Assembly (NCBI RefSeq): GCF_041435435.1
Contig: NZ_CP108494.1
Coordinates: 1,550,001 to 1,614,000, forward strand
Direction: 5' to 3'
Origin: Streptomyces sp. NBC_01241
Lineage (GTDB): Bacteria; Actinomycetota; Actinomycetes; Streptomycetales; Streptomycetaceae
DNA length: 64,000 nt
The notes beneath the pieces were generated by a model, which saw nothing but the letters and a program-made list of their open reading frames with translations, was not told the DNA's origin and ran no database searches. How positions within the stretch are numbered: the first letter of the stretch is position 1; each line of letters begins with the position of its first letter. The position numbers and the translations under genes are program-made. This document shows positions 5,858 to 18,002 of this stretch, one piece after another.

Positions 5858-6529
5858 TTGTCCCGACACGCACTCATCAAGGCAGTGCTCGGACCGATCT
5901 TGCGCCTGATGTTCCGCCCCCAGGTGGAGGGCGTGGAGAACATCCCCGGGGACGGTCCGGTGATCCTCGCGGGCAATCATCTGACGTTCATCGACTCGAT
6001 GATCATGCCGATCTGCTGCGACCGGCCGGTGTACTACATCGGCAAGGACGAGTACGTGACGGGCAAGGGGCTCAAGGGCCGGGCGATGGCCTGGTTCTTC
6101 ACGGGCTGCGGCATGATCCCGGTGGACCGAGACGGCGGGCGCGGCGGTGTCGCGGCGCTGATGACGGGCCGTCGGGTGCTGGAGGAGGGCAAGGCCTTCG
6201 CCATCTACCCGGAGGGCACCCGCTCCCCCGACGGCCGTCTCTACCGGGGCCGTACGGGCATCGCCCGGCTGACGCTGATGACCGGCGCGCCGGTGGTGCC
6301 GTTCGCGATGATCGGCACGGACAAACTGCAGCCCGGTGGTACCGGTCTGCCCCGCCCCGGCAAGGTGACGGTCCGCTTCGGTGAGCCGATGGAGTTCTCC
6401 CGCTACGAGGGCATGGACCGCGACCGCTATGTGCTGCGGGCGGTCACCGACTCCGTGATGGCCGAAGTGATGCGGCTGTCGGGTCAGGAGTACGTCGACA
6501 TGTACGCCACGAAGGCGAAGGCCGCGTGA
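5858..6529 (+). CDS. 1-acyl-sn-glycerol-3-phosphate acyltransferase-like (PlsC family)
   Basis: 223 residues. Transfers an acyl chain to lysophosphatidic acid or a related lysophospholipid at the membrane. The catalytic NHx4D motif is NHLTFID, and the acceptor-binding motif is YPEGTRSPDG. Further blocks IPVDRDGG and GAPVVPFAMIG are as in the family. The start is TTG, placed 5 bp after a GGAGGA site. A strong hairpin follows. Streptomyces carry several PlsC paralogues, so the exact acceptor is uncertain. Confidence 0.9.
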   Translation: MSRHALIKAVLGPILRLMFRPQVEGVENIPGDGPVILAGNHLTFIDSMIMPICCDRPVYYIGKDEYVTGKGLKGRAMAWFFTGCGMIPVDRDGGRGGVAALMTGRRVLEEGKAFAIYPEGTRSPDGRLYRGRTGIARLTLMTGAPVVPFAMIGTDKLQPGGTGLPRPGKVTVRFGEPMEFSRYEGMDRDRYVLRAVTDSVMAEVMRLSGQEYVDMYATKAKAA

Positions 6530-6631: not shown

Positions 6632-8176
6632 CTACTGGTGGACGATGCCCTCCTCCAGCTTCTGACCGCGCAACAGGAACCAGGCGGTGACGGCCGTCGC
6701 CAGCAGGACCGCCGCGCCGGCTCCCGCGGCGAGCCGCAGCCCGTCGACGAACGACTCCTGTGCGGCGGAGACCAGCGCGCTCGCCTGGTGCGCCGGAAGG
6801 CCGTGGGCCGCTTCGACGGCGCCGCCCAGCGATTCGTGGGCCGCCGCGGCGTTGGCGGACGGGACGCCCTTCGGGGTGGCGAAGTCCTGGTAGACGCCGG
6901 TGACGATGGAACCGAGCAGCGCGATACCGAGGGCCGCGCCGAGTTCGTACGCCGTCTCGGAGACCGCGGCCGCGGAGCCCGCCTGCTCCTTCGGGACGCT
7001 GGAGAGGATCACATCGGAGGTGACGGTGAAGGCGAGGCCCGCACCGACGCCGACGACCAGCAGCACCGCGCCGATCAGCGGGTAGGCGGTCTCCTTGTGG
7101 ATCAGGGTGACCACGGCGAGCGCCAGGCCGATCGCCCCGAGACCGCCGGACACCACCGACCGTACGGAGTAGCGGCGGGCCGCCACACCGGCGAGCAGTC
7201 CCGCGGTCACCGCGCCGATGGCCGCGGGCAGCTCGGCAAGCCCTGCCTCCAACGGCCCGCGCCCCTGGACCAGCTGCAGGAACTGGGAGAGGAAGAAGAC
7301 CAGTCCGGACAGGCCGAGGATGGTCAGCAGATCGGCGAGGACCGCACCCGAGAAGCCCCGGTGGTGGAAGAGCCGCATGTCCAGCAGGGGCGCGGGGAGC
7401 GTGAGTTGTCTGCGGACGAACCAGCGGAGCGCGGCCAGGCCGCCGAGGCCCGCGACGGCGACCGCCCAGCTCATCCCGTGCGCGGCCAGCTCCTTGACGG
7501 CGTATACGACGCCGATCATGCCGACGAGGGAGAGCGCCACGCTGCCCAGGTCCCAGGGGCCCGGCACCGGATTCTTCGACTCGGGGATCATCTTGACGCC
7601 GACGACCACCAGGACGGCCATGACGGGCAGGTTGATCAGGAAGACCGAACCCCACCAGAAGTGTTCCAGGAGGAATCCGCCGACGACGGGGCCGACGGCC
7701 GCGCCCGCCGAGGCCATGGCGCCCCAGATGCCGATGGCGAGGCTGCGCTCGCGCGGATCGTGGAAGAGATTGCGGATCAGGGCGAGCGTGGACGGCATCA
7801 GGGTGGCGCCCGCGACACCGAGCAGCGCCCGCGCCAGGATCATCATCTCGGGGGTGCTCGCGTACGCGTTGAGCACGGAGACCGCGCCGAAGGCGACGGC
7901 GCCGCTCAGCAGCAGCTTCTTGCGGCCGATGCGGTCGCCGAGGCTGCCCATGGAGACCAGGAGCCCGGCGATGACGAAGGAGTAGACGTCACCGATCCAG
8001 AGCAGCTGGGTACCGGACGGCTTGAGGTCCTCGGTGAGGAAGGGGGTGGCGAGGCCGAGGACCGTGGCGTCCACGGCCACGAGCAACACGGCGAGAACGA
8101 GGACGGCCAGGGCGATCCACCGCCCCGGTCGGCGCAGCTCTTCGGCGGCTTCCGCGTGCTGTTCGAGACTGCTCAT
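6632..8176 (-). CDS. MFS drug:H+ antiporter, DHA2 (14-helix) family
   Basis: 514 residues with about 14 membrane helices. Motif A (GSLGDRIGRKKLLL) follows helix 2 and motif C (GAAVGPVVGGF) is in helix 5; motif C is diagnostic for exporters. D41 in helix 1 (AVDATVLG) is also typical of QacA/SmvA-type multidrug antiporters. The ATG overlaps the stop of the upstream TetR gene (ATGA), so the two form a coupled regulator-exporter operon. It probably exports a toxic cationic compound or antibiotic; the substrate is not deducible. Confidence 0.92.
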   Translation of the reverse strand: MSSLEQHAEAAEELRRPGRWIALAVLVLAVLLVAVDATVLGLATPFLTEDLKPSGTQLLWIGDVYSFVIAGLLVSMGSLGDRIGRKKLLLSGAVAFGAVSVLNAYASTPEMMILARALLGVAGATLMPSTLALIRNLFHDPRERSLAIGIWGAMASAGAAVGPVVGGFLLEHFWWGSVFLINLPVMAVLVVVGVKMIPESKNPVPGPWDLGSVALSLVGMIGVVYAVKELAAHGMSWAVAVAGLGGLAALRWFVRRQLTLPAPLLDMRLFHHRGFSGAVLADLLTILGLSGLVFFLSQFLQLVQGRGPLEAGLAELPAAIGAVTAGLLAGVAARRYSVRSVVSGGLGAIGLALAVVTLIHKETAYPLIGAVLLVVGVGAGLAFTVTSDVILSSVPKEQAGSAAAVSETAYELGAALGIALLGSIVTGVYQDFATPKGVPSANAAAAHESLGGAVEAAHGLPAHQASALVSAAQESFVDGLRLAAGAGAAVLLATAVTAWFLLRGQKLEEGIVHQ

Positions 8177-8761: not shown

Positions 8762-8971
8762 CTTTGAAGCCGTGGCCCTCCCCCGACGGGAGAGAGGACC
8801 ATGTCGGCATGAAGCCGCTGCTACTGGCGGTGGGCAGTATTGGTTCCTGCCGAGTGCGCCAAGTGGGCAACCACGTTGAGTGACTGCTTCCATGGCGGCA
8901 TCAGCAGGTCGGCTGTGCCGACGCACAGGCCAGTAAGATCGGCGGCTGCTCGATGATGGTGGGGGCAAGGT

Positions 8972-9658
8972 ATGGGCGTTGTTGGGGCTGGCTGTTCTTT
9001 GACCAGCGATGGTGACGACAGCGACTTCTGGGGGCATGTCCAAGAGGCCGCCGGGCTCTTTGTGCCGCTGGGGGACGGGTCACGGAAAGTTGAGTTGCTC
9101 GGGTGTGCGCCTCAAGGCGGCCTGCGGGTGTGCATTGACCGCATGGGCAGCAAGCGAGCGCTGGCCGGCAACGCCAATCTCGCGCTCTTGGACTCATCGG
9201 GCGCCAGGATGGGGCAGTACTTCGTCAACGACGTGACGCCGGAGGCCGTGCGGCCCTCGACGAGAGGGGCGGGCCTGGTCGACCTGACCGTGCGTCTGTG
9301 GTGCGACAACGCGCTTCCACAGTCCGAATGGCCGTGGGAGCTCATCCGCGCCGGACAGATGAACCGGACCGGGTTGTGGCATTCCCTCGGCCCGGCTGGC
9401 CGCCGCGGATGGCTGTCCGTGGCTCTGACACGTCACAGCTTCCGATCCTTGCCGGATCGACCCTCCGGCGCCACGTATCACTTGGACGGTGAGCACATCG
9501 TGGACGAGGACGGCTTCTACTGCGCTCTTGGCGAGGCCGTGAACGGGCCAGGCGGCTATTTCGGGTGGAACCTCGACGCTCTGGACGACTGCCTGCGCGG
9601 CCGCTGGGGTGCCAAGTCACCATTCACGCTGGAGTGGCACTCCTCCAGCGTCGCTTAA
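8972..9658 (+). CDS. Barstar-family protein, C-terminally truncated
   Basis: 228 residues. The N-terminal 165 residues resemble an accessory domain often fused to barstar in Streptomyces. The C-terminus (YHLDGEHIVDEDGFYCALGEA, then GYFGWNLDALDDCLRG) is the conserved core of barstar, the inhibitor of barnase-type ribonucleases. A full barstar domain continues 25-40 residues beyond this point, but here TAA comes after HSSSVA, so the last strand and helix are missing. No barnase-like gene is adjacent. The ATG at 8972 follows a GGGGGCAAGG site. It could be an orphan immunity protein or a degenerate one. Confidence 0.7.
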   Translation: MGVVGAGCSLTSDGDDSDFWGHVQEAAGLFVPLGDGSRKVELLGCAPQGGLRVCIDRMGSKRALAGNANLALLDSSGARMGQYFVNDVTPEAVRPSTRGAGLVDLTVRLWCDNALPQSEWPWELIRAGQMNRTGLWHSLGPAGRRGWLSVALTRHSFRSLPDRPSGATYHLDGEHIVDEDGFYCALGEAVNGPGGYFGWNLDALDDCLRGRWGAKSPFTLEWHSSSVA

Positions 9659-9671
9659 GCGGCGCCGTGGG

Positions 9672-10016
9672 CTAATCACTCGCTGCGAGTCGGTTGAGAA
9701 CTTCCACCGGGGTGAAGCTCCAGCCGACGAGGCGCGGTCCGCTCCAGTTGATGCCGATCATGTATCCCTCTCGGGCGGCATCAGGCAGGTCGCGATCGCG
9801 CCAGGCATCCAGGGACATGGATTCAACACGTAGCCCATGCCCCCAGGTCTTCGCCGCCCTCTGGGCGCGGGCCGTGGTCGACCAGTAGGGAAGACTTCGC
9901 GTGCCGTCCGCGGAGAGGGGAGCCGGGCTTCCCTCGTCATCCCGGACAAACCAGACCACTCCGCTCTGGCGGGCCTCTCGGAAGAATGCTGCCGCTTGCG
10001 AACCACTCTGACTCAT
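9672..10016 (-). CDS. DUF2750 family protein
   Basis: 114 residues. The sequence contains the DUF2750 pattern as I know it: VVWFVRDDEG near the N-terminus, LPYWSTTARAQR in the middle, LDAWRDRDLP, then INWSGPRLVGW near the C-terminus. The ATG at 10016 (MSQSGSQAA) is preferred; the open frame to 10148 adds a non-conserved stretch. Function is unknown. Such small proteins are often immunity-like genes near toxins, but no toxin is seen here. It is convergent with the barstar-like gene, leaving only 13 bp between stops. Confidence 0.65.
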   Translation of the reverse strand: MSQSGSQAAAFFREARQSGVVWFVRDDEGSPAPLSADGTRSLPYWSTTARAQRAAKTWGHGLRVESMSLDAWRDRDLPDAAREGYMIGINWSGPRLVGWSFTPVEVLNRLAASD

Positions 10017-10106
10017 GCCACGTGAGCCTAGCGTTCCCCCGTCACTCATTTCGTTAGCGGTTCTAAGTCGTCCCTTGCTCAGCACGACGGTCCGAGCGGG
10101 GAGGGT

Positions 10107-10172
10107 ATGTCGCTGTTCGAAGTCGTCCTGGAGATCTTCCGCGACCACGGCGTTGACGTCATCTTTCGCTGA
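10107..10172 (+). CDS. Possible 21-residue ORF, uncertain
   Basis: ATG preceded by GGGGAGGGT, then MSLFEVVLEIFRDHG and six more residues to TGA. The ribosome site is good, but the ORF has no recognised homologue and lies between a DUF2750 gene and the end of a pseudogene. It could be a small protein or a remnant of a longer gene. Confidence 0.2.
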   Translation: MSLFEVVLEIFRDHGVDVIFR

Positions 10173-11748
10173 GCAAGGCGCCAGGCCAGCTATTCGGGGC
10201 TGGCCGGTGCGGGGTGTTTCTTCAGGCGGCTGGCCACGTAGCTGGCTCGGTCGCCGCCGTTGATGTGATGCTACTGGTATGCGGTCTGGTCGGCGAGGCC
10301 AAGCAGGTCAGCGACGAGTTTCCAGTGGATGTTGTCGACCATAGCGAGGATCGCGCCATTGCGTGCGAGTCGGGCTGCGGGAACGCCGTGTGCGGCCAGG
10401 CGTCGGGCGAGTGTGCTCGCCGAGATCGGCTGGCCCGGTCGGCGGCCCGGGAACAAGTAGGGGTTGGGCAGGTGAGTGGCGGCGATCGGGCGGCGTTCGT
10501 CAATGACCCTTCGGACCAGGGCGGACAGCCGCGGACGGAGCCAGAGGGGATCGCGGCCGACCTTAAGCCCGCAGACCGCGGGATCCGAGGGATGATCGAG
10601 TACGTCGTCTGCCTTGAGAGCGACCAAGCGGGTGCAGTGTTGGCCGTACTGAAGAACAAGGCATCCTGACACCCTGACCGGCAGCGTGATGCTCTCGTCA
10701 GTCTCGAGCCGATGCGCGAGCACCACGCGGTCCCGGTCACTCATGATCGACCGGTCCTCGCAGTTGGCCAGAGCGGATACGGCCAGGTGTTTGGGAGCGA
10801 GCTGGTGGGCTGCGGCCCACGTCAGAAAGCGCCGGACTTCGCCTTGCCGGACGCGGTGTGCGGCCACCCAACGGTCCACCAGTGGCTGCAGGCAGGTGCC
10901 GAGCGAGCTTCGGTGGCCGCGGAGGTGGAGGCAGAGCTGACGCGCTACTCGTAGGTGGTTCTTCAGGTACGTCCGGGTGCCGATCGTCAGGCTGCCGCGC
11001 TGATGGATCTGCCGGTGAGCCATGGGCAGCAGCTGCCAGCGGGCATAGCGGACGAGCGCAAGGCGGTCGTCGCTGTCAGATACGTCCGTGAGTCGGGGAT
11101 GTCCAGTTGGAACTGGGCGAGTTGCTCGTCGCGCGCTGGCAGGACCTCGGTGAGTACGAGCAAATTGCGCAGGTGCGCCACCGAATTAGTTTGTGGGAGC
11201 GAGTCGAGGGCCTCGTGGCTGCAGTCGAGCTCCCCGGTGACCATCTTGCGGATGAGTTTCCCTCCTGCTTTCTGCCGCAGGTAGTCGAGCACCGTGTGCG
11301 GGTTGTCGTAGCGGGCCAGCTCTTCCGCGAGGGGAATCAGCCGGGTGTCCGGGCGGTTGCCGGGAGCGGTGAAAGTCTCCTCAATTTCGATCTGGACCAT
11401 GCATGCTGGGCAGCGGCCGCGGTGTTCAAGTCTGCCGAGAGAACTGCAGGAAACGCACCGGTACCGGAGACGGACACCTGCGCATTCAGGACAGAGTGGG
11501 TCGCCACTGTCAGTGCGCTGGAAGACGACGGAATCCTGGTGGCACGTGGCGCAGGCGGCATGTGCGCTGAAGACAGCGTTGGCGCAGGAGATGCATATGG
11601 ACCCCTCCGGCCAGTGGCGATCGGCGCGGGACACGATCCCGCATCGACTGCAGGGGACGCGCATGGCCAAATAGCACAAGTGGCAGCGAGGAAGGCCGTC
11701 GATAGTGCGAACCGGTGCCGATGGACGACGCTTGCAAGTCGTGCAGAG

Positions 11749-11753
11749 CGGCG
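11749..11753. repeat. Target-site duplication, left copy (CGGCG)
   Basis: 5-bp direct repeat directly flanking the IS21 element; identical to 15165-15169. IS21-family elements are known to duplicate 4-8 bp. Confidence 0.8.
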
Positions 11754-11875
11754 TGTGGACGATCACGTAATTCCCCGGCCGTGTGGTCACGTAATTCCCC
11801 ACCCTGTCGGTGGCGAGGTGTCAGGTGTAAGAGGCCGTCGTCGACTGGTCGGTGGCCTCTGGCAGACTCCGCGGC

Positions 11876-12418
11876 ATGGGTATGTTCAAGCGGGCCAATG
11901 AGCCGGAGAGTGCTGGTCAGGCTGGAGAGCGAGCCGACCTGAGCCCCCTGCTTCTGCAGGGCGAAGACATGATCGAACAGTTGGGTCGTGCCCACATGTC
12001 TTGGGGGCTGGGTTCAGCGGACCGCTGGGATCTGGACCAGACGACCGGCATCATCACCTGGACCTTCCCCGACAAGACGGCGACAGCGCCCGCTCAGATC
12101 CTCGGCAGTTTCAGCCCCGGCTCGGGCTCATGGCTGTGGGCCTGGGCCAACAAGAGCATCCTGCCCGATATGAGCCGGGACGCCCGCAGGTTCCGTGACT
12201 GGGCAGAAGCCAACGGGCATCCCGCCCTTGCCCAGCCGGAGATCAACGCCGATGAGCAAGGTGCGTCGACGCTCGTGGCATTGGCTGTCCGGGTCACCGG
12301 AGCGGCGGGCTACTACAAGGGTCCGGGAGGCAACTCGGCCGTGATTATCACCTTCGGGCCGGTCACCCTCACCGCTGCGGACGGCAAGGTCTCCACGTTC
12401 AACATCAATATCAACTAG
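11876..12418 (+). CDS. DUF6882 family protein, IS21 cargo
   Basis: 180 residues with the pattern I associate with DUF6882: WDLDQTTGIITWTFPDKTATAP, ILGSFSPGSGSWLWAWANKS, then a C-terminal ITFGPVTLTAADGK. No catalytic motif is seen; function unknown. It is transcribed opposite to istA/istB and lies wholly inside the element defined by the terminal repeats, so it travels with it. ATGs at 11876 and 11882 are both possible, and neither has a clear Shine-Dalgarno site. Confidence 0.65.
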   Translation: MGMFKRANEPESAGQAGERADLSPLLLQGEDMIEQLGRAHMSWGLGSADRWDLDQTTGIITWTFPDKTATAPAQILGSFSPGSGSWLWAWANKSILPDMSRDARRFRDWAEANGHPALAQPEINADEQGASTLVALAVRVTGAAGYYKGPGGNSAVIITFGPVTLTAADGKVSTFNININ

Positions 12419-12494
12419 CGTCGGCGAACCGAGGCCGAGGCGCCTGAGCCCCACGGCCCAGGCGCCGATCCGATGATTCCCATGGTCAGCTGCC

Positions 12495-13265
12495 CTATGA
12501 GGCTGCTGTTCCGTTCTTGTCGGCCGGGTTCCTGGGGCGTTTGTTGGGTCGGTAGCTGGGACCGTTCATGATGACCTGGTGGCTGGTGTTGATCAGCCGG
12601 TCGAGGAGCGATTCGGCGACGACGGGGTTGGGGAACAGGGGATACCAGTCGCTGGGAGCCCGGTTGCTGGTGATGATCAGAGATCGTCCCTGCCGCTCGC
12701 TGACCAGCTCGTAGAGGTCGTCGGCCTGGGCGGCGGTCATCTGGCGCATGGCGAAGTCGTCGAGGATCAGGACGTCGGGGCGGATCAGCTCGCGCATGCG
12801 CTTGTCCCAGGTCCGGTCCGCGTGGCCGCCGGCGAGCTCGGCCACGATTCGGCTGGTCTTGGCGAAGCGGACGTTCGCGCCCTGGCGGACGGCGAGGTGC
12901 CCCAGGGCCTGGGCGATATGGGTCTTGCCGACCCCGACCGGCCCGAACAGAATTACGGACTCACCGGCGTGGAGCCAGCGTAGAGCGGCCAGGTCCCGGA
13001 TCTGGGCGGCGGGGAGCTTGGAGGAGGCGGTGAAGTCGAACTCTTCCAAGGTCACCTGCTGCTCGAACTTAGCCCGGTGTAGGCGGCGTTGGAAGGCGAC
13101 GGTCTCGCGGCGGGTGATCTCGTCCTGGCAGAGGACCTGGAGAAAGTCGAGGTGTCCGAGCTCTCCGCCGTGGGCCTGGGCCAGGCGGGCGTCAAGGGTC
13201 TCCATCATCCCGGACAGCCGGAGAACTTTCAGTGACTCGCGCAGGGCGGTGTCCATCACGCTCAT
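12495..13265 (-). CDS. istB: IS21 helper ATPase IstB
   Basis: 256 residues, AAA+ ATPase that assembles on target DNA and stimulates IstA. Walker A is GPVGVGKTH near residue 107, Walker B is VLILDDFAM, and the sensor-like segment LIITSNRAPSDW follows. The start overlaps the istA stop (ATGA), the standard IS21 arrangement. Length is normal, with no lesion. Confidence 0.95.
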   Translation of the reverse strand: MSVMDTALRESLKVLRLSGMMETLDARLAQAHGGELGHLDFLQVLCQDEITRRETVAFQRRLHRAKFEQQVTLEEFDFTASSKLPAAQIRDLAALRWLHAGESVILFGPVGVGKTHIAQALGHLAVRQGANVRFAKTSRIVAELAGGHADRTWDKRMRELIRPDVLILDDFAMRQMTAAQADDLYELVSERQGRSLIITSNRAPSDWYPLFPNPVVAESLLDRLINTSHQVIMNGPSYRPNKRPRNPADKNGTAAS

Positions 13266-14878
13266 CGCACGGCCTCCTCAGCGTCGTCGTGGCCCTGGTC
13301 CTCGTGGAGTCCGCCCAGTGTCTGGGCGGGGATGTCGGTGGGGAACAGGCCCCCGGGGCCGTGGAGGAAGGCCGCGGCGCCGGCGTCGCCGGTCTCCGGC
13401 TCGGGGTCGGTCTCGGTGCCGGCGATCAGGATGCCCTTGATGGTGCGGTAGGAGGGGTCACCGACCGTGAGGGCCTTCGCGCAGGCGGCCTCCAGGCGGA
13501 CGTCGCTGTACTTCTTGCGCAGTCCGAGGATCCCCTGGGCGGCGCGGAGTCGGTAGAGGGCGTTCACCTCCAGCAGTTGGTCGACCACCTCCCGGCAGCG
13601 GTCCCCGACCTCGGATGCCTGGGTCCGGCACCAGAGCGGGGTCTTCATCTGGAAGGCGATCTTCTCCGGCGGGTAGTCGCCCTTGTCGGTGCGTTTTCCC
13701 TGTTCCAGGGCGGCGTGCGTCTTGACCAACCGACCCTCGTGGAAGACCTGAACCATGGTCGCTGTGGAGCGGGCATCGACACGGCGGCCGATCAGCTTCC
13801 AGGGCACCGAGTAGAGGGTGCGGCCGACCTTGACGTGGATGTCCGGGCCGACGGTGGCGGTGGACCAGCGGGCCAGTACGAAGGGCTTGTCCGGCAGCGG
13901 CAGCAGGGCCGGGGCCTCGACCGCGTCGAACACCGCCAGCGGGGCGGCCCCGCCCAGCGGCTTGCACTGCCGACCGCCGGCGGTCTCCCTGGCCCAGATG
14001 AGGGCTTCGGCCTGCATGTGTTCGAGCGAGGTGAACTGGCGCCCGCTCCAGAACGAGTCGCGGACGTAGGGCATCGGGCGCTCGACCCGCGGCTTGTCCT
14101 TGGGATGGACCGCTCTGGCTGGGTCGACCAGGGCGCCGTAGTAGAGGGCGAGTTCGGCATACGCCTTGTTGATCTTCGGGTCGTAGAGGTCGGGCTTGTC
14201 CACCCCGGTCTTGAGGTTGTCCGGCACCAGTCGACGCGGGACGCCTCCGAAGAAGCTGAACGCCTCGGCGTGGGACTCGGTCCAGGCATGCTGGTCCATG
14301 TGGATCACCGGGCGCACGAACATGTGCCGCGAGCAGGGCAACACCATCACGAAGGCCCAGATCCGGTGGCGCTTGCCGGTGCCCGGGTTGATCCACTGCC
14401 CCATGAAGCCGTAGTCGATCTGGGCTTCCGAGCCGGGCTCGACGTCGTCGCGGAGCACCGTGACCTTCGACCTGGCCGCCTCATCGGGCAGGTTCTCGTG
14501 AACCCACCGGCGGAAAGAGGAGATCGACGCCTTCAACTTCCGCTCGTCACGAAGCCGTTGATGGATCGTGGTAACGGTGGTGGTCTCCAGCAGAGCCTTG
14601 ATGTAGTCGCGGTGCTGCTCGATCTCGGGCCAGGTGATCTGGTTCAGTCCCCGTTCGGCCTGACCCGGGAACCAGGTCTTGATCAGCTTGGCCCAATCCG
14701 CCTCACCCATCGGCGGCCCGCCTGGGACGATCCCGGCCGCCTCGGCCGGCGCCAGGTACTTCCTGATCGTCTTGCGATCCACCCCCAGCGAGGCGCCGAC
14801 CTGCGACTTCGAGCGGCCCGCATACCAGTGGACGTAGATCTCGATGATGTCGACCACGGTGAACGTTCTCCTTGCCAT
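13262..14878 (-). CDS. istA: IS21 transposase IstA
   Basis: 538 residues. An N-terminal helix-turn-helix (KSQVGASLGVDRKTIRKYL) is followed by the DDE integrase-fold catalytic core: first Asp in AQIDYGFMG, second Asp in RRLVPDNLKTGV, Glu in KPRVERPMPYVRD. The C-terminal part is basic, for end binding. The ATG at 14878 (MARRTFTVVD) is the natural family start although the frame is open to 15037. It is intact, so this copy could be transposition-competent. Confidence 0.95.
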   Translation of the reverse strand: MARRTFTVVDIIEIYVHWYAGRSKSQVGASLGVDRKTIRKYLAPAEAAGIVPGGPPMGEADWAKLIKTWFPGQAERGLNQITWPEIEQHRDYIKALLETTTVTTIHQRLRDERKLKASISSFRRWVHENLPDEAARSKVTVLRDDVEPGSEAQIDYGFMGQWINPGTGKRHRIWAFVMVLPCSRHMFVRPVIHMDQHAWTESHAEAFSFFGGVPRRLVPDNLKTGVDKPDLYDPKINKAYAELALYYGALVDPARAVHPKDKPRVERPMPYVRDSFWSGRQFTSLEHMQAEALIWARETAGGRQCKPLGGAAPLAVFDAVEAPALLPLPDKPFVLARWSTATVGPDIHVKVGRTLYSVPWKLIGRRVDARSTATMVQVFHEGRLVKTHAALEQGKRTDKGDYPPEKIAFQMKTPLWCRTQASEVGDRCREVVDQLLEVNALYRLRAAQGILGLRKKYSDVRLEAACAKALTVGDPSYRTIKGILIAGTETDPEPETGDAGAAAFLHGPGGLFPTDIPAQTLGGLHEDQGHDDAEEAVR

Positions 14879-15164
14879 CCGGTTCGTCCATCGACCTCTC
14901 GGTCTCCAGGCCGAAGGACAACGACGACTCCAAGACGCCCAGGACCCTCGACCCGGCTCGGGCATGCCCATGGGGAAACTGGAGGAATCGGCAGAGATGA
15001 CCAGTAGGCGATCAAACCACTCGAACAGGGATAACAACTGCCCGGTCCGGTGCCCCCAGGCCCTCGCCCGCGGTCACCGTCCCCATGGGGAATCGTGATC
15101 GCGGGGGTGGGGAATTACGTGACGCTGAACCCGCACGAAGTGGGGAATTGCGTGATCGCTGACA

Positions 15165-15169
15165 CGGCG
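15165..15169. repeat. Target-site duplication, right copy (CGGCG)
   Basis: Matches 11749-11753 on the other side of the IS21 element. Confidence 0.8.
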
Positions 15170-15656
15170 AAGGCCGAAGCCGGTTCCAGCACGCTCGACA
15201 GTACTGCCCTTGGGGCGTACGGGCGTTGATACGACGGGTTTCGCCGCAGCCATCGCAAGGGTGGCGGTCGGTGCGTTCACGGCAGGTACTGCACTGTGGC
15301 CCGTCACTGGTCCGGCCGGCGACGCGGCGGACCTGCCCGCAGTCCCGGCAAGTCTCCCTGCGTCCCTTCATGCGGGCCCAGCAGGAACCACAAAGTTGAT
15401 CAGCCTGAGAGGCGAGGTGCCGCATCCGGCTGCAGCCGGAGCACTGTTCGAGTGGTTGGCGCTGTTTCCAACATCGGTCACAGACCGGGCCGGCCTCTGT
15501 GATCTTTCGCGAGCGTTTAACTTCTCCGCAGTCGACGCAGGTCCGCCGTCGACTGTCCCGCCAACACCGTTCGCATAAGGGGTGTCCGGCCTTGCGCGAT
15601 ACAATTCGGCTTTGCTGTCCGCAGGATGCACACGTTGTCAATTCGGCAGGCACGGC

Positions 15657-16040
15657 TCAGCTTTCGGCATCGAAAAAGTCCGGGGACAGCATCGGAGTGT
15701 CTGGAAGAACCGGCCGCAGCCGAGTTACCGGCCCGGGCTCCGGCGCCGCGGGTTCTTCCGGGGTGATCGGGACCACGAGTTCCTCGAATGTGCACTCCAG
15801 GATCTGACACAAAGCCACAAGGAGACCGATAGCCACCTTGGGCGGATTTTCCGCTTTCACCAAGCGGAAGATGTAGCTGCGGTCGAATTCGAAGCCGCGC
15901 TCACGAAGGGCTGGAACCAGCTTGGTAGTGGTGTACCAGTTCTTGCGGACGGCCATCAGCTCACGTAGGCGCCACTCGTACTGAGGCTGCAGTTCTTCCA
16001 CGGCCTTGCGGCGTGCAGCATCGTTGGGGTCAGCCATCAT
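15657..16040 (-). CDS. Small helix-turn-helix protein of the integrase operon (XRE-like)
   Basis: 127 residues. The central region (WRLRELMAVRKNWYTTTKLVPALRERGFEFDRSYIFRLVK) is a Cro/C1-type helix-turn-helix, followed by VAIGLLVALCQILECTFEELV, which matches the last helices of that fold. The C-terminal 35 residues are Pro-rich and probably disordered. Its ATG overlaps the TGA of the integrase gene, and its stop is 3 bp before the zinc-ribbon gene, so all three are one operon. It probably binds the operon promoter or acts as a directionality factor; this is inference. Confidence 0.8.
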   Translation of the reverse strand: MMADPNDAARRKAVEELQPQYEWRLRELMAVRKNWYTTTKLVPALRERGFEFDRSYIFRLVKAENPPKVAIGLLVALCQILECTFEELVVPITPEEPAAPEPGPVTRLRPVLPDTPMLSPDFFDAES

Positions 16041-17266
16041 GCCCTCCTGCGATTGCTGCGTGGCTCTCCGGGAACCTCTTCGAACTCATCCTCCATCTGG
16101 GCCTCCGCATCGGCGCGGGCGAATGCCTGGTGCAGCATCTTCTCCTCTTGAGCATCGAGGAATTCCCGCACCTTGAGGTTCTTGTAGTCGCTGCTGAGCG
16201 CCGTGTAGATGGCCGTCGTGGCTGCGTGAGAATGCCCAACCTGCTCGGTGACGAACTGCGTGTCATAGCCGCTCTCGATGAGCCGGGTGACGTAGGTGTG
16301 CCGCAGACAGTGCGGGTCGAGTTCTGCAGACAGGCTGGCCCGATCACGCCAGGTCGCGAAGCGCGCATTCACCGAACGTTCGGAGATCGACTCGTGGCGC
16401 TCGGTCGGGAACATGACGCCGTCGTCCGGCCGGTCAAGGTAGAACTGCGGACGCACGTGGTCGAGGTAGAAGCGAACGGTGGCGACCGCCCATGGCCACA
16501 CGGACACCACGGTCCGTCGCCGGGGCGGCTGCCCCGCACTCGCCTTGCCCCACCGCACCGATAGCCCGGCCAGGTCTCCGAACTCTGGCAGCTTCGCCTG
16601 CCTCCGCCAGTCATGCGTCTCCAGCCGGGCGGTCTCTCGACGCCGCAGCCCCCATGCGTAGGCAGTGGTGAACATCGCCACATCCCGTGCCGCCGCCAGC
16701 GCGCCTTTATGTCCCGCAGCCTGCATCCGCTTGATCTCCGGATCCATTTGGGAAAAGAACCGCTTGATCTCCTGCCGTGTCAGCGGACGATTCCGGTTGG
16801 GCCGCCCCACGTAGTCCTGCGAGTGCCGGACCGCGTTGAGATCACGCACCACCTGTGCTGGGAAGGTCCCGAAGAGGTTCAGGCACACTTCCTGCCACTG
16901 GTAGGCAGGGTTGGTGAGGTACTCCAAGTACAGCCGCAGGACTCGCGCTTTCGACCCCAGAGTGCCGCTCGTATTGCCCGGCGCACACAGCGACATCCAG
17001 CGGTCGAACAACGCAGCATTCCAGGCCGGCTCCCACGGGTAGGCGTCCGCAACCGCCTGAACCTGCCGGATCACGCTCTCCCGGCCGTTGACCGTCGTGT
17101 CCTGCAGGTTCCTGGCCTTCTGGTGCTCGCGAAAGCCTAAGAGAGTGCTCTCGAACACAGCCTCCGCAGGCCGCAACATGGGCACTCCGGGAACGACATA
17201 CAGCGTCGCAACACCGGGTGCCGGGGCAGGACCATGCTGGACTGCACTGCGACTGACTCGACCCAC
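16037..17266 (-). CDS. Tyrosine-type site-specific integrase
   Basis: 409 residues from the GTG at 17266. An ATG at 17179 with GGAG 5 bp upstream is an alternative, but residues before it (VATLYVVPG) look family-like. An N-terminal SAM-like core-binding domain (about 45-140) is followed by the catalytic domain: Arg in TAYAWGLRRRETARL, the HxxR box in DPHCLRHTYVTRL, the second His in VGHSHAATT and the nucleophile Tyr in TAIYTAL. All four landmarks are present, so it should be active. It is the first gene of a coupled three-gene operon. No tRNA or obvious att duplication is seen nearby. Confidence 0.9.
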   Translation of the reverse strand: MGRVSRSAVQHGPAPAPGVATLYVVPGVPMLRPAEAVFESTLLGFREHQKARNLQDTTVNGRESVIRQVQAVADAYPWEPAWNAALFDRWMSLCAPGNTSGTLGSKARVLRLYLEYLTNPAYQWQEVCLNLFGTFPAQVVRDLNAVRHSQDYVGRPNRNRPLTRQEIKRFFSQMDPEIKRMQAAGHKGALAAARDVAMFTTAYAWGLRRRETARLETHDWRRQAKLPEFGDLAGLSVRWGKASAGQPPRRRTVVSVWPWAVATVRFYLDHVRPQFYLDRPDDGVMFPTERHESISERSVNARFATWRDRASLSAELDPHCLRHTYVTRLIESGYDTQFVTEQVGHSHAATTAIYTALSSDYKNLKVREFLDAQEEKMLHQAFARADAEAQMEDEFEEVPGEPRSNRRRA

Positions 17267-17310
17267 CGATCACGCTCCGTGCTCATTCATTGCGTCACCA
17301 GACTGCCCTC

Positions 17311-17328
17311 GTGTTGTCCGGACGACAC
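17311..17328. promoter_or_regulatory. Candidate operator upstream of the integrase operon
   Basis: Near-perfect 18-bp palindrome GTGTTGTCCGGACGACAC (one mismatched pair), 45 bp upstream of the integrase start. It is a good candidate binding site for the HTH protein encoded second in the operon. Confidence 0.45.
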
Positions 17329-17468
17329 CGTTGATGCATCACAGTCATCAGAACGAGGAAACAGGCAGCAGGACACGCAACTTGGCTCGCTGAAGCGTGG
17401 TAGAACTCGTCCCCAGATGCCACGCAGAACCTGCACTTCTCGCGCTTGCGAGCGGCATCATTGGTGCA

Positions 17469-18002
17469 GTGGAGTCAACACTGCCTCTTCTGCTGATCGA
17501 CATCGACGGCCCGCTCAATCCGTACGCGGCACTGACGCGCCGCCGGGTTCCGGACGGCTATGCGCTGCATCTGATGCGGCCGACCGGGTGGGACTACGGG
17601 ATGCCGCTGCCCGTCCTCCTCAACCCGGAACACGGGAAGGCGCTGCGCGGCCTGGCCGGCCGTTACGAGCTGGTCTGGGCGACGACCTGGAAGGACGAGG
17701 CCAACGCATGGATCGGGCCGCGTCTCGGGCTGCCCCGGCTGCCGTACATCGACTGGCCGTCGATGCACGGCAGCGCGCCGGACGGCACGTACTGGAAAAC
17801 GCAGTACGTGGTGGAGTACGCGGCGGGCCGGCCCTTCGCCTGGGTCGACGACGAGATCTCCGAGCAGGACCGGGCGTGGGCTACCGAGCAGGGGGCGGCC
17901 GAGGCTCTCCTGCTGTGGATCGATCCGTGGATCGGGCTGCTGCCGGCCGATTTCGAGGTGCTCGCCGCGTGGGCGGACGGCCGCCGGGGCGGCGGGGACT
18001 GA
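17469..18002 (+). CDS. HAD-like hydrolase domain protein
   Basis: 177 residues. The N-terminal LLLIDIDGPLNPY is a HAD motif I (DxD) variant. WATTWKDEAN carries the motif II Thr, and FAWVDDEIS resembles motif IV with its acidic pair. This arrangement matches small HAD proteins I know as the HAD domain of Swiss-army-knife RNA repair proteins. A phosphatase or nucleotide-processing role is inferred. GTG at 17469 starts the conserved part; the frame is open to 17397 but that extension lies in the integrase promoter region. Confidence 0.65.
   Translation: MESTLPLLLIDIDGPLNPYAALTRRRVPDGYALHLMRPTGWDYGMPLPVLLNPEHGKALRGLAGRYELVWATTWKDEANAWIGPRLGLPRLPYIDWPSMHGSAPDGTYWKTQYVVEYAAGRPFAWVDDEISEQDRAWATEQGAAEALLLWIDPWIGLLPADFEVLAAWADGRRGGGD

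Follow-up and report, generated by a model that had tools for sequence, protein, structure and literature searches.

The locus

We analysed a 64,000-nucleotide stretch of the Streptomyces sp. NBC_01241 genome (contig NZ_CP108494.1, positions 1,550,001 to 1,614,000), which we call the window. Three tightly coupled genes on its minus strand, the trio, encode a tyrosine recombinase (YR), a small helix-turn-helix (HTH) protein and a zinc-ribbon protein (ZnR); these genes and the transposon family that carries them are the subject here. Gene 1 (16037-17266) encodes the 409-amino-acid YR, which matches PF00589 (E=3.9e-21) and has its catalytic residues: R208, H319-x-x-R322, H345 and Y354 are invariant in an alignment of 16 members. 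Gene 2 (15657-16040), overlapping the YR gene by 4 bp, encodes the 127-amino-acid HTH protein, which matches PF13443 (E=2.3e-5; 25.0 bits, cut-off 22) and has 15 invariant columns in a 21-member alignment. Gene 3, the ZnR gene, starts 3 bp past the HTH stop. All of this, together with 18 CxxC motifs in ZnR, agrees with an earlier reading of the window from its letters alone (the sequence-only reading). The ZnR gene, in addition, is not intact.

The ZnR gene is in two parts, both on the minus strand. The 5' part (15165-15653), recognised by CxxC count and by tblastn to relatives, encodes zinc ribbons. The 3' part (10190-11753), recognised by comparison with two relatives (L033, L034) and with a ZnR profile, encodes the last zinc ribbons and a degenerate recombinase domain; ten CxxC motifs lie before the break and eight after it. 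Between the parts sits a 3,411-bp IS21-family element (11754-15164, minus strand) with terminal repeats and a 5-bp duplication, CGCCG. It has the features expected of IS21: IstA (13262-14869) and IstB (12495-13265), above cut-off for NF033546 and NF038214, inverted ends and a short duplication. The 3' part also shifts frame near 11000-11023 and carries an in-frame TAG at ~10271. Because the ZnR gene is broken in these three ways, the window copy is a dead, decayed relic that cannot move with its own ZnR.

The sequence-only reading had set the system at 10190-17266 and so missed the true ends. The first 13 bases of a HAD-like gene (8809-8821, plus strand) end at 8821 and the remainder resumes at 17491 (17491-18002, plus strand; PF18143 below cut-off), with its frame open into the element. 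The element body therefore spans 8822-17490 on the minus strand, 8,669 bp including the nested IS21 element. Joining the flanks (8821|17491) gives MKPLLLIDIDGPLNPYAAL, the intact start of a HAD hydrolase, which aligns colinearly across the junction with five other genomes; the gene is conserved in many. The left end (17472-17490, minus strand) reads GAAGAGGCAGTG-TTGACTC, with the same 12-nucleotide spacing to the TTG motif as in end-mapped relatives. The right end (8822-8843, minus strand) reads CCAATACTGCCCACCGCCAGTA and matches CCAATACCCGACnnCACCATTA of the largest clade and CCAATATTGCTGGCCACCAGCA of L033; both ends follow the spacing rules of their relatives. An imperfect palindrome, TGATGACTGTGATGCATCA (17332-17350), lies upstream of gene 1 and at the same position in L033, L034 and L233, and is a possible operator or core site. 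We had considered a left end just upstream of this palindrome (~17350) with the right end lost, and the HAD-gene comparison with other genomes ruled this out. The window holds no tRNA gene.

Relatives of the trio and their mobility

We searched for YR in 199 genomes of the same genus. Some match was present in 117, and we took 40 strong-family loci for comparison. YR and ZnR occur together in every one of the 40 (a contig end truncates one locus), with an HTH gene detectable between them in 37, and neighbouring genes of the trio mostly overlap by a few bases. On these counts the co-occurrence is beyond chance. The trio is thus conserved across actinobacteria as one mobile system, as the sequence-only reading had held, and the genes are not mostly found apart. 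In this family the trio is tightly packed into one operon immediately within the left end. ZnR joins ~3-11 zinc ribbons to a tyrosine-recombinase fold, and its size runs from ~500 amino acids with 6 CxxC motifs up to ~750-840 amino acids with 16-22. A ZnR profile found matches in 74 of 198 genomes of the order and in 15 of 296 genomes of the phylum, the latter spread across 13 genera. The protein is also matched by 258 plasmid records, chiefly from Streptomyces, Rhodococcus and Arthrobacter, and by no phage record.

In one genome (G090) a 4.96-kb segment with the trio occurs three times at ~99.9% identity in three unrelated places, and a second genome (G158) likewise has three copies; such near-identical copies at unrelated sites identify a transposon. 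Comparison of copies gave exact ends, A[AG]CCCTCnGGAATTGCATC on the left and CCAATACCCGACnnCACCATTA on the right. Several assemblies have ~4.67-kb contigs that start or finish at an element end, as collapsed repeats would. The marks of a tyrosine-recombinase transposon are therefore all present: invariant R, H-x-x-R, H and Y, and identical copies with exact ends.

We note three further copies. The window's own genome holds a second trio (L049), which looks intact; at its joint (6889-6897 of that locus, genome position ~6,622,896) a right end runs straight into a left end (CACCATTA|AAGCC), resembling a circle joint or a tandem insertion. Another member (L086, 5980-17538) is 11.56 kb long, ~7 kb of it cargo. 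A 1.2-kb copy (L215), at a recombinase Tyr codon, is internally deleted with both ends intact, and is either a non-autonomous derivative or a product of simple decay.

We found no description of the trio, or of insertion into integrase genes, in the open-access literature, and papers beyond it may hold one. Gene 1 has weak NCBIfam matches to GmtY and GmtZ, and the name 'Gamma-mobile-trio' appears in no title or abstract of that literature. The trio is the core of a widespread and apparently undescribed actinobacterial transposon family.

Insertion sites

Collecting loci and comparing their flanks, as had been proposed for defining the ends, yielded exact ends for the window copy and for 16 elements of the largest clade, each mapped at both ends. 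In all 16, joining the flanks restores an open reading frame (ORF) with neither duplication nor loss, and the junction lies one codon past a Tyr codon. In 15 this is the catalytic Tyr of an unrelated tyrosine recombinase (LGH....TT..Y-x^, where ^ marks the junction). The exception is L086, whose target motif is PHVTLAYG^, in a gene that we take to be of 2H-phosphoesterase type. We then scanned 84,980 species genomes with the left-end pattern and obtained 106 loci, 39 of them with a family integrase downstream, in Streptomyces, Kitasatospora, Actinacidiphila, Mycobacterium, Rhodococcus, Nocardia, Pseudonocardia, Kineosporia, Actinomadura and other hosts. TAC or TAT stands at the fixed position in 37 of the 38 such loci with a readable flank. 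Among 53 in-frame target ORFs, 42 fall in the Pfam family Phage_integrase and 4 are ISL3 transposases by Pfam (CRDRAGAYA^); the remainder includes several short ORFs. The pattern is one of a single insertion orientation, fixed ends, no target duplication and sites within conserved coding motifs.

Some single targets stand out. One (L254) is an integrase gene on a viral contig, and two (L052, L079) are YR genes of the same family, that is, an element within an element. In a Dormibacterota element (L147) the target motif MSRGREKNCAFV resembles that of a conjugative relaxase/helicase, another mobile-element gene. Two members of other clades (L035, L037; left flanks at ~6650-6700 and 6390-6440 as oriented) flank antisense genes near a Walker A motif (LFLSGPPGAGK and LVVLIGASGSGK), which hints that other coding motifs are targeted too.

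Over 64 distinct sites, only the TA of the Tyr codon is close to invariant. Much of the remaining information lies in codon positions 1 and 2 of the G, H, T and T residues, and third positions appear close to the expectation for high-GC codon usage. Between two sub-clades the H-to-Y spacing shifts by one codon, in step with their targets. From the codon-position pattern and this spacing it follows that the element reads the coding sequence of a protein motif at the DNA level. The left side retains six target bases (TAYNNN), which vary with the target, and the right hexamer is CCATTA in 14 of the 16 mapped elements and one base off in the other two, whatever the donor.

Such targeting could be mere survivorship: insertion would be loose, and copies in recombinase genes would persist since these genes travel between genomes. 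Targets are indeed mostly mobile-element genes, and apart from TAY the DNA consensus is weak. Against this, near-identical copies within one genome, recent because they are near-identical, are each found at the same codon in different genes, sub-clades match their target spacing, and the window clade uses other fixed motifs (see below). We regard survivorship as highly improbable.

In the interrupted recombinases the frame stays open through the catalytic Tyr and continues into the element, so that the catalytic core is whole. The element-coded tail is exactly 32 amino acids long in 33 of 54 distinct left ends. Its coding signal is weak, and its first 45 nucleotides look conserved as DNA. We rejected the tail as a folded C-terminal replacement: a structure prediction for one target plus tail (L083) gave a confident recombinase core and a disordered tail (pLDDT <50).

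Targets of the window clade

The nearest relatives of the window YR are L033 (69% identity), L034 (62%) and the plasmid copies L232 (65%) and L233 (63%). L033 measures 4,463 bp and interrupts what is presumably a PAPS-reductase-like gene, an ORF of 373 codons once the flanks are joined (...ESAPRAKR^AAVEIDR...). In L034 and L233 the left junction is the same, after ...APDGRVLVL^, within what we take to be a gene for a Nudix protein. Judged by these flanks, the window clade also inserts into conserved coding motifs, but of non-recombinase genes.

Fold of the ZnR protein

We examined the ZnR structure on intact proteins of relatives. The AlphaFold2 model of the L034 protein has a confident C-terminal domain, for which the best Foldseek matches are Cre (7.7e-5) and XerA (2.0e-4). 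VIA matched the domain to XerA (Z 14.8, rmsd 11.3 over 244 residues), XerH (Z 14.1, rmsd 6.8 over 267 residues), the Tn1549 integrase (Z 13.4) and Cre (Z 13.1); Z values of 13-14 fall about in the range flagged for helical bundles, yet the match lists are nearly all recombinases and their relatives. A family absent from these fold lists is not thereby excluded. When the profiles of ZnR and of the recombinase family were compared, no sequence similarity emerged, so that the relation rests on the fold. On motif inspection, the Tyr position in ZnR relatives is occupied by Trp or another residue and the first Arg is not conserved, whereas R698 (L034 numbering) is invariant. As modelled, then, the ZnR C-terminus folds as a tyrosine recombinase without the catalytic Tyr. 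The sequence-only reading had foreseen a recombinase-like C-terminus and is borne out on this point; its count of two recombinase-type proteins in the Tn554 sense is not, since the second lacks a conserved catalytic Tyr and first Arg. ZnR is best read, on this model, as a non-catalytic recombinase partner bearing a zinc-ribbon array.

It could be argued that YR alone moves the element, with ZnR and HTH as cargo or regulators, for example in copy-number control or defence. Phage recombinases often need just a small helper, and HTH might simply act as a repressor on the palindrome that precedes gene 1. We consider this unlikely: gene order and tight coupling are kept across ~40% recombinase identity, and ZnR, unlike typical cargo, has a recombinase fold.

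Cargo and other features of the window

The window cargo lies between ZnR and the right end. It comprises a DUF2750 gene (9672-10068, minus strand; PF11042, E=4.9e-14), with the homologous stretch stopping at ~10068, and an ORF with a barstar (nuclease-inhibitor) domain (8972-9658, plus strand; PF01337, E=2.6e-13). Both families are also present on Streptomyces plasmids. Between the ZnR stop and the cargo lies a coding C-terminal fragment (10095-10159, plus strand; MSLFEVVLEIFRDHGVDVIFR followed by a stop codon) that resembles a gene end in L115 and L121. Within the IS21 element, the stretch from istB to the IS end carries a passenger, a DUF6882 ORF (11852-12418, plus strand; PF21813, E=2.5e-35), on the strand opposite to IS21.

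Proposed mechanism

We conclude that the trio very probably constitutes the transposition module of a site-specific tyrosine-recombinase transposon family. YR would cut and join DNA, excising and inserting the element via a circular intermediate. In the largest clade, the target is the DNA of the LGH...TT..Y active-site motif of other recombinases, with landing one codon past the Tyr. The likeliest part for ZnR, by way of its zinc-ribbon array and non-catalytic recombinase domain, is to recognise a long, degenerate target or else to bridge the synapse. HTH would most probably control the operon from the palindrome or assist binding at the left end. For this division of labour among YR, ZnR and HTH we see about an even chance.

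Several points weigh against this interpretation. The roles of ZnR and HTH are deduced from their domains only, and the case for mobility and excision is read from genomes rather than from experiment. Mapped ends cover only some of the clades. The nucleotide consensus at targets is weak and does not account for how the site is read. Finally, the window copy gives no sign of activity.

More tentatively, and with somewhat less than even confidence, we propose that the element may be a hyperparasite. It would target the active-site coding DNA of other elements' recombinases, with the zinc ribbons and their attached dead recombinase doing the reading, and insertion directly past the catalytic Tyr codon, together with the new tail, would leave the victim recombinase working. 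Since the victim would still work, its own element would stay mobile and carry the hyperparasite onward.

The transposon interpretation accounts for a trio that is labelled 'integrase', 'HTH regulator' and 'hypothetical protein' in databases on many actinobacterial chromosomes and plasmids. Its targeting strategy, in which the most conserved stretch of a recombinase family serves as the attachment site, is absent from the papers we searched. With such an attachment site, the integrase gene of every incoming integrative element, phage or plasmid would be a fresh target. Should the targeted recombinase remain active, this would be a clear example of one mobile element parasitising another; if ZnR does the reading, it would constitute a degenerate, codon-periodic DNA recognition system of interest as a targeting tool.

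Comparison with known systems

The sequence-only reading had likened the trio to Tn554 (TnpA, TnpB, TnpC), and the trio could be a divergent member of Tn554 or of the strand-biased circularizing integrative elements (SEs), moving copy-out, copy-in with two recombinases, a small accessory protein and a 6-bp footprint. These systems are described as encoding several proteins together, among them one large recombinase-like partner and a small protein that binds DNA, and as choosing specific targets without duplicating them (PMC10214605). Like Tn554, the present family is site-specific, inserts without target duplication (here, joined flanks restore ORFs exactly), and has three transposition proteins including a small one; the small protein of the present family is HTH_26-like (Pfam). 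As in SEs, six target bases go to the left, the operon is at the left end, and one recombinase-like protein (Tfp in SEs) lacks catalytic residues. However, Tn554 uses a pair of catalytic recombinases and leaves a 6-bp footprint, and SEs (IntA, Tfp, IntB, Srap) have two catalytic recombinases, four genes, Gammaproteobacteria hosts and a right hexamer taken from the donor (PMC10214605). Here there are three genes, with catalytic residues in one protein only, no tfp and no second catalytic gene. The partner is a zinc-ribbon pseudo-recombinase and targets are coding motifs. The nearly constant right hexamer fits neither the SE donor rule nor the donor-left-flank 6-bp footprint of Tn554, so that the likeness drawn to Tn554 does not extend to the footprint. 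We therefore think membership in Tn554 or SEs quite unlikely.

GInt islands (GinA-D) also have a recombinase-like protein without a catalytic residue, GinC, and alter the C-terminus of their target genes (PMC5385486), both of which recur here. They differ in having three integrase genes plus GinD and no reported zinc ribbons, and in using other targets, for example ssb or a gene for an ABC transporter. RIT elements are likewise trios with recombinase folds, but all three proteins keep the catalytic Tyr and the ends are inverted repeats (PMC10214605, Table 1), whereas here gene 2 encodes an HTH protein and ZnR lacks the Tyr. Because the family has a single catalytic recombinase, a different gene content and a different hexamer footprint, it is probably distinct from Tn554, SEs and GInt despite working in a similar way.

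Tn5053 and Tn402 are DDE transposons whose prey is the res sites of serine resolvases. As 'res-site hunters' they target the recombination module of other mobile elements (PMC7765201), a strategy similar to the one proposed here. In the present family, the hunter is a tyrosine-recombinase element and the prey is the coding sequence of a tyrosine-recombinase active site.

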